A stretch of 45,402 bases of DNA from Flavobacteriaceae bacterium (GTDB taxonomy: Bacteria > Bacteroidota > Bacteroidia > Flavobacteriales > Flavobacteriaceae): contig JAHEMY010000009.1 in the NCBI GenBank assembly GCA_024643425.1, positions 1 to 45,402 on the forward strand, in the 5' to 3' direction. The translations under genes and the position numbers were made by a program. This document shows positions 31,837 to 32,204 of the stretch, piece by piece. The notes below the pieces were generated by a model. The model did not search any database. It was not told where the DNA came from and saw only the letters and a program-made list of their open reading frames with translations. The number at the start of each line of letters is the position of its first letter. Position 1 is the stretch's first letter.

Positions 31837-31844
31837 TATCTTTG
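31837..31844 (+). promoter_or_regulatory. -7 box (TATCTTTG) of the rpsU promoter
   Basis: Full TAnnTTTG match. Transcription would begin near 31849, giving a leader of about 26 bases that contains the strong Shine-Dalgarno sequence. The -33 region is AT-rich without a clear TTTG. Confidence 0.6.
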
Positions 31845-31859
31845 CCGTCCCTAAAGAGA

Positions 31860-31867
31860 GGAGGTGA
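31860..31867 (+). promoter_or_regulatory. Full-strength Shine-Dalgarno sequence of rpsU
   Basis: GGAGGTGA (31860-31867) is fully complementary to the anti-Shine-Dalgarno end of 16S rRNA and lies 7 bases before ATG 31875. The neighbouring genes have only A-rich leaders. It also fixes the start codon. Confidence 0.9.
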
Positions 31868-31874
31868 TGATACT

Positions 31875-32069
31875 ATGTTAATTATACCAGTAAAAGACGG
31901 AGAAAACATTGACAGAGCGCTAAAGCGTTTCAAGCGTAAGTTTGACAAAACAGGCACTATGCGTCAATTGAGAAGTAGACAACAGTTTACCAAGCCTTCT
32001 GTAGTGCGTAGAGCTCAAGTTCAAAAAGCCCAGTACATTCAGCATTTAAGAGATCAGGAAGAAATTTAA
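31875..32069 (+). CDS. rpsU: 30S ribosomal protein bS21
   Basis: The 64-residue basic protein matches bS21: MLIIPVKDGENIDRALKRFK, then TMRQLRSRQQF and a Lys/Arg-rich C-terminal helix. bS21 binds the 30S platform next to the anti-Shine-Dalgarno end of 16S rRNA. The chosen ATG 31875 follows the conserved ribosome-binding site; extension to TTG 31842 would run back over it. In Flavobacteriia bS21 helps hide the anti-Shine-Dalgarno sequence, and rpsU is one of the few genes with a strong site, so autoregulation is likely. A terminator follows at 32092. Confidence 0.93.
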   Translation: MLIIPVKDGENIDRALKRFKRKFDKTGTMRQLRSRQQFTKPSVVRRAQVQKAQYIQHLRDQEEI

Positions 32070-32091
32070 CGTTCCTTTTTTGAAAATAACG

Positions 32092-32133
32092 AAATCCGCT
32101 CCCTTCATAATAGAAGTTGAGCGGATTTTTTTT
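32092..32133 (+). terminator. Rho-independent terminator of rpsU
   Basis: Perfect 10-bp stem AAATCCGCTC/GAGCGGATTT (32092-32101 with 32119-32128), 17-base loop, followed by a run of T to 32133. It separates rpsU from the recombinase gene. Confidence 0.88.
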
Positions 32134-32204
32134 GTGACTTACTTTGAAGGTACAGTAGAAAGAATATTGTACATTTATTGAGTCACCTACAATGCGAATC
32201 ACAA

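Follow-up and report, generated by a model that had tools for sequence, protein, structure and literature searches.

An rpsU gene with an extended Shine-Dalgarno sequence in a Flavobacteriaceae bacterium: probably an ordinary instance of the published bS21 control unit, set beside Shine-Dalgarno-less bS21 copies in relatives

The rpsU gene of a Flavobacteriaceae bacterium, located on the 45,402-nucleotide stretch of DNA analysed here (the window; contig JAHEMY010000009.1 of assembly GCA_024643425.1), very probably forms a short monocistronic unit controlled by the feedback loop already published for bS21. Autoregulation of this kind is thus established in the literature, and the gene in the window is best seen as an ordinary example of it. 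In the excerpts of McNutt et al. 2023 (PMC9976891) that are cited throughout, F. johnsoniae ribosomes without bS21 initiate faster on rpsU by way of its extended Shine-Dalgarno (SD) sequence, a single gene carries an SD beyond chance in most of 200 Flavobacteriales, and ~80% of Flavobacteriales meet the criteria of that study. By homology, we infer that the tail is sequestered and that feedback operates here as well: ribosomes with bS21 (plus bS18 and bS6) would hide the 16S 3′ tail and initiate poorly on rpsU, and 30S subunits without bS21 would have a freer tail, pair with the rpsU leader over 12 bp, and produce bS21 until the pool is full. An earlier sequence-only reading had proposed bS21 autoregulation of rpsU, a proposal supported by its match to the published F. 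johnsoniae mechanism, to the SD criterion, and to the comparative data. The unit would be one more case in which the absence of a component from the ribosome regulates one particular gene.

The rpsU product, translated from the ATG at 31875, is a bS21 protein (PF01165, E = 2.1e-19) whose residues 1–62 align with the bS21 chain 7jil_z (E = 1.4e-28) of the F. johnsoniae ribosome; Tyr54, read off the sequence, lies in its C-terminal part (Table 1). Because a search of the organism’s own assembly for a 16S 3′ end gave no match, its tail was inferred from relatives, in which the 16S rRNA ends in GGAACACCUCCUUUCU throughout the 65 copies listed; these came from the 43 genomes, out of 120 in the family, that matched the search pattern, whereas 77 did not match. 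Other tails occurred in a few family genomes of a later sample, with GGAAUACCUCCUUUUU in G153 and G304 and an odd match in G010. The predicted rpsU helix assumes an own tail like that of the relatives, and CACCUCCUUUCU as the own 16S 3′ end would fit. Computed against GGAACACCUCCUUUCU, the helix consists of 12 consecutive pairs, one of them G-U, and its energy falls well under the published criterion (below −13 kcal/mol), though this was computed with an energy program other than that of PMC9976891. The claim that GGAGGTGA at 31860–31867 is fully complementary to the 16S 3′ end held for the position and failed for the wording, as its last A faces an A in the relatives’ tail and the helix runs further 5′ than GGAGGTGA, to 31855; apart from that wording the observation of an unusually strong SD at rpsU is real, and is in this sense partly confirmed.

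Table 1. Features of the rpsU unit, with positions in the window
Feature	Position	Strand	Basis
rpsU, bS21, 64 aa, Tyr54 present	31875..32069	+	PF01165 (Pfam), S21p (NCBIfam), alignment to 7jil_z
Extended Shine-Dalgarno AGAGAGGAGGTG	31855..31866	+	12 pairs with the relatives’ 16S tail; duplex −20.7 kcal/mol
−7-type promoter box TATCTTTG	31837..31844	+	sequence; fits the flavobacterial consensus TTG..TANNTTTG, compared with its TANNTTTG part only
Intrinsic-terminator hairpin (32091–32129) and T run	32091..32133	+	fold of 32070–32140

Within the window, the SD of rpsU stands apart. Among 33 start codons hand-picked from the ORF list and scored, the 32 other than rpsU lay between +0.7 and −8.4 kcal/mol. 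The frames that the sequence-only reading had labelled tuf, secE, nusG, rplK, rplA, rplJ, rplL, and rpoB reached only −0.5 to −4.0 kcal/mol, in line with its contrast between these genes and rpsU; the ribosomal protein frames scored, all with weaker sites than rpsU, were the four named rplK, rplA, rplJ, and rplL. Beyond the window, genome-wide uniqueness rests on pattern searches rather than on scoring of the whole sequence. The pattern GGAGGTGA-N3-12-ATG occurred at 16 distinct places in the genome (17 rows) compared to 14 for the reversed pattern, and the 15 places other than rpsU were all within or opposite long open frames, including four with a long frame from the ATG that lay, by eye, inside larger coding frames. 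The looser AGGAGG-N4-13-ATG gave 222 matches compared to 196 for its reverse, both being counts of pattern matches only. A genome with numerous sites of equal strength at other genes would have spoken against the proposal, and no such abundance was seen within these searches. A strong SD alone is no proof of regulation, and it could simply serve to translate a small, abundant protein efficiently, without feedback. This explanation is improbable, as the window frames named tuf, for ribosomal proteins, and rpoB do without such a site, and as depletion of bS21 in F. johnsoniae raises an rpsU reporter ~3-fold and leaves SD-less reporters nearly unchanged (excerpts of PMC9976891).

The anatomy of the locus is that of a compact unit, and both the −7 box and the terminator ascribed to it by the sequence-only reading are present. 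The flavobacterial promoter consensus TTG..TANNTTTG is taken from the accessible part of PMC3587595; since the box ends 30 nt before the ATG, a leader of about 24–25 nt is predicted. A TAnnTTTG motif ≤60 nt upstream was found for 97 of 102 SD-bearing rpsU genes compared to 11 of 48 without an SD. A terminator scan of the window gave none and the hairpin downstream of rpsU came from folding (−19.6 kcal/mol, z = −4.65, 0/200 shuffles as low), beyond which lie a tyrosine-recombinase gene and an S30AE-domain gene. Many other ribosomal proteins repress their genes by binding a structured leader, and bS21 might do the same at rpsU. This is very unlikely, since the rpsU leader with early coding sequence folds little better than its shuffles (z = −1.17, 27/200 as low), a search with Rfam at its thresholds returned only tRNAs in the window and no family at the leader, and the conserved element is the 16S-complementary stretch itself, which tracks the 16S sequence. 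A tiny frame overlapping the rpsU start (ATG ATA CTA TGT TAA, from 31867) was considered and set aside as a by-product because it accompanies the GATG found in certain leaders, and many other leaders lack it.

Conservation of the element was explored in a sample of 120 family genomes, 115 of which had a bS21 match, with 150 bS21 genes read in 114 Flavobacteriaceae genomes. A strong SD was kept in 102 of the 150 genes (dG, −16.3 to −21.6 kcal/mol) and the remaining 48 were at −10.2 kcal/mol or weaker. The element is short, and −15 kcal/mol is reached by 54 of the window’s 18,152 25-mers, but those at −20 kcal/mol or below (three, both strands counted) all overlap rpsU, and conservation of the strong SD at bS21 genes already refutes chance complementarity, leaving it a negligible probability. 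In 12 of the 114 genomes no bS21 locus in the initial set carried the SD, although one of them (G093) later proved to have such a gene; on this evidence the loop is not universal.

Outside the usual tail, the leader and the 16S rRNA change together. In family f4, probably the Chryseobacterium family judging from its UCUCA tail, the leader fits the changed tail in all six loci for which both gene and tail are known: for five loci with a UCUCA core, pairing to the own tail gives −14.7 to −14.9 kcal/mol and pairing to the usual tail −4.8, and for one with a UCUCU core the two values are −16.1 and −6.0, respectively. Covariation of the rpsU leader and the 16S tail is already in print, the excerpts of PMC9976891 stating, from Jha et al. 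2021, that Chryseobacterium and relatives have a UCUCA anti-SD with a matching rpsU leader. Of 30 loci from hand-chosen genomes across the order, 11 had a strong SD, 18 had none with either their own or the usual tail, and for one the tail was not known; those without an SD included both f15 loci and eight of 13 f6 loci. In three f6 loci (L267, L268, L276) KHSSTG replaces KFD in bS21 and yet pairing to the usual tail gives their SD −19 to −23 kcal/mol, so that outside the Flavobacteriaceae the SD accompanies more than a single type of protein.

Seven genes of the canonical type (L072, L075, L087, L088, L093, L102, L131) are without the strong SD, all from streamlined genomes ≤1.9 Mb, and 6 of 13 genomes of this size with a gene read have kept it. 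In favour of the loop, all but one of the 102 SD-bearing bS21 proteins have Tyr54, compared to four of seven canonical-type proteins without an SD (Fisher p = 6e-4, relatedness ignored). G304 (L286) and G153 (L287), both with the 16S tail GGAAUACCUCCUUUUU, have as their sole bS21 match a gene of the Arg24 type without an SD. On a bS21 tree (150 rows, 64 columns) the SD state changed six times compared to a shuffled mean of about 41; with 3 of 147 inner branches starred and several long branches, the tree was not used for dating the duplication.

A single bS21 match was found in the window genome; many relatives have more. Two or more matches were found in 44 genomes, reduced to 42 because the second match fell below the cut-off in G027 and G041. 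In all 42 multi-copy genomes (two or three bS21), exactly one examined copy had a dG below −13 kcal/mol, a count made up of 35/35 from the first set and seven from later reading and complete for 40 of the 42 (one copy over the cut-off was left out in each of G097 and G015). There were 164 bS21 matches, of which 14 were outside the first listing: ten were read later, two (G097, G015) were unfetched, and two (G027, G041) were dropped, the second copies of the latter giving no hit on later reading; L369 is a refetch of L169. Among the SD-less copies, L108 stands out with a site of moderate strength (−10.2 kcal/mol). A split at residue 24, chosen after the leaders had been seen, separates most copies: a strong SD occurs in none of the 40 genes with Arg24 and in 102 of the 110 others. 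The Arg24 genes keep Tyr54 in 39 of 40 cases and a Tyr-Ile/Val-Gln triplet in 36 of 40. Eight further SD-less copies lack the triplet (0/8), two having by eye lost the tyrosine, and L171 also lacks it, which weakens the case for a common function of SD-less copies; overall, Tyr54 is kept by most of one large SD-less type and less so by more divergent copies. Identities by codon position were 0.83, 0.92, and 0.55 for 31 SD-less copies and 0.81, 0.88, and 0.54 for 94 SD-bearing genes, showing that the protein is under selection. Their missing SD needs no special cause, as nearly all genes of this order lack one by default.

Several SD-less copies lie next to a sigma factor gene. An RpoD-like gene (287 codons) is located upstream of the SD-less bS21 in 15 of 28 named loci (L183–L191, L193–L196, L199, L201), with a gap of 19–37 nt in nine and 103–219 nt in six; at L216 only about 200 nt upstream were visible. 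In some genera the additional bS21 gene thus directly follows a second RpoD-like gene. Of 17 further genomes with an Arg24 paralog, six (G045, G014, G013, G115, G068, G071) have a second RpoD adjacent to it and another elsewhere, and for the other 11 the search at that threshold gave a single RpoD match. Of the genomes without an Arg24 paralog, six of eight also have two matches (25 genomes searched overall), so that a second RpoD can occur independently of the paralog. Dokdonia is credited with two RpoD homologs in the accessible part of PMC3587595, and a single RpoD match was found in the window genome. Excerpts of PMC10931766 place rpsU and rpoD of E. coli in one operon.

Viral copies were likewise without the usual SD. 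From a viral set of 80 loci (L402–L481, with L479 dropped for want of a leader), none of the 79 bS21 genes whose leader could be read fell below −13 kcal/mol with the usual tail; over the first 40 residues, 29 of these genes are distinct. One locus (L403) scored −14.9 kcal/mol with a UCUCA-type tail and looks like host DNA. Many of the viral relatives end in Tyr-Ile/Val/Leu-Gln, and their leaders are A/T-rich. A phage origin of the SD-less paralog was considered and rejected, as the 14 matching phage records, all with <60% identity, offer no close source.

From the published model it follows that SD-less copies would escape the loop and, if bS21-like in binding, would repress the SD-bearing copy. 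A bolder reading is that each multi-copy genome has exactly one SD-controlled copy and that the SD-less copies, some apparently cotranscribed with a second RpoD-like sigma gene and some phage-borne, act as drivers, those keeping Tyr54 filling the pocket, hiding the anti-SD, and switching the housekeeping rpsU off, so that ribosomes would exchange one bS21 for another in a sigma-linked manner. This reading is speculative and probably wrong as a whole; our already low confidence in it was lowered slightly further because of the eight SD-less copies without the triplet and the occurrence of a second RpoD without the paralog. The genomes with several bS21 genes nevertheless constitute a natural test of the model, which predicts the direction in which rpsU translation should shift when an SD-less copy is lost or overproduced. 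A literature search at the level of titles and abstract beginnings, covering few subscription papers, gave no account of SD-less bS21 copies or of a sigma linkage in Flavobacteriaceae, and both are absent from the accessible portions of PMC9976891, PMC10783764, PMC3587595, PMC12186496, and PMC10931766; where the excerpts of PMC9976891 name bS21 paralogs, these are from phyla other than Bacteroidota.

Set beside known systems, the window unit is closest to rpsU of F. johnsoniae as described in the excerpts of McNutt et al. 2023 (PMC9976891), being likewise a stand-alone bS21 gene in SD-poor surroundings, with a leader of similar length (~25 nt, as predicted here, and 25 nt there) and an SD within the published range (9–13 bp, −14 to −21 kcal/mol). 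No difference of principle was found against the parts of the F. johnsoniae description available, the SD in the window having one G-U pair. The Chryseobacterium-type (UCUCA) system has the same locus and logic with both partners changed, whereas the window belongs to the ordinary GGAGG type. Francisella, in the portions of PMC9578407, PMC9976891, PMC12186496, and PMC10931766 at hand, has several bS21 genes per genome, as do the multi-copy relatives described here and unlike the window genome with its one; set against the Francisella paralogs, the multi-copy Flavobacteriaceae are distinguished by an SD on only one of the copies examined.
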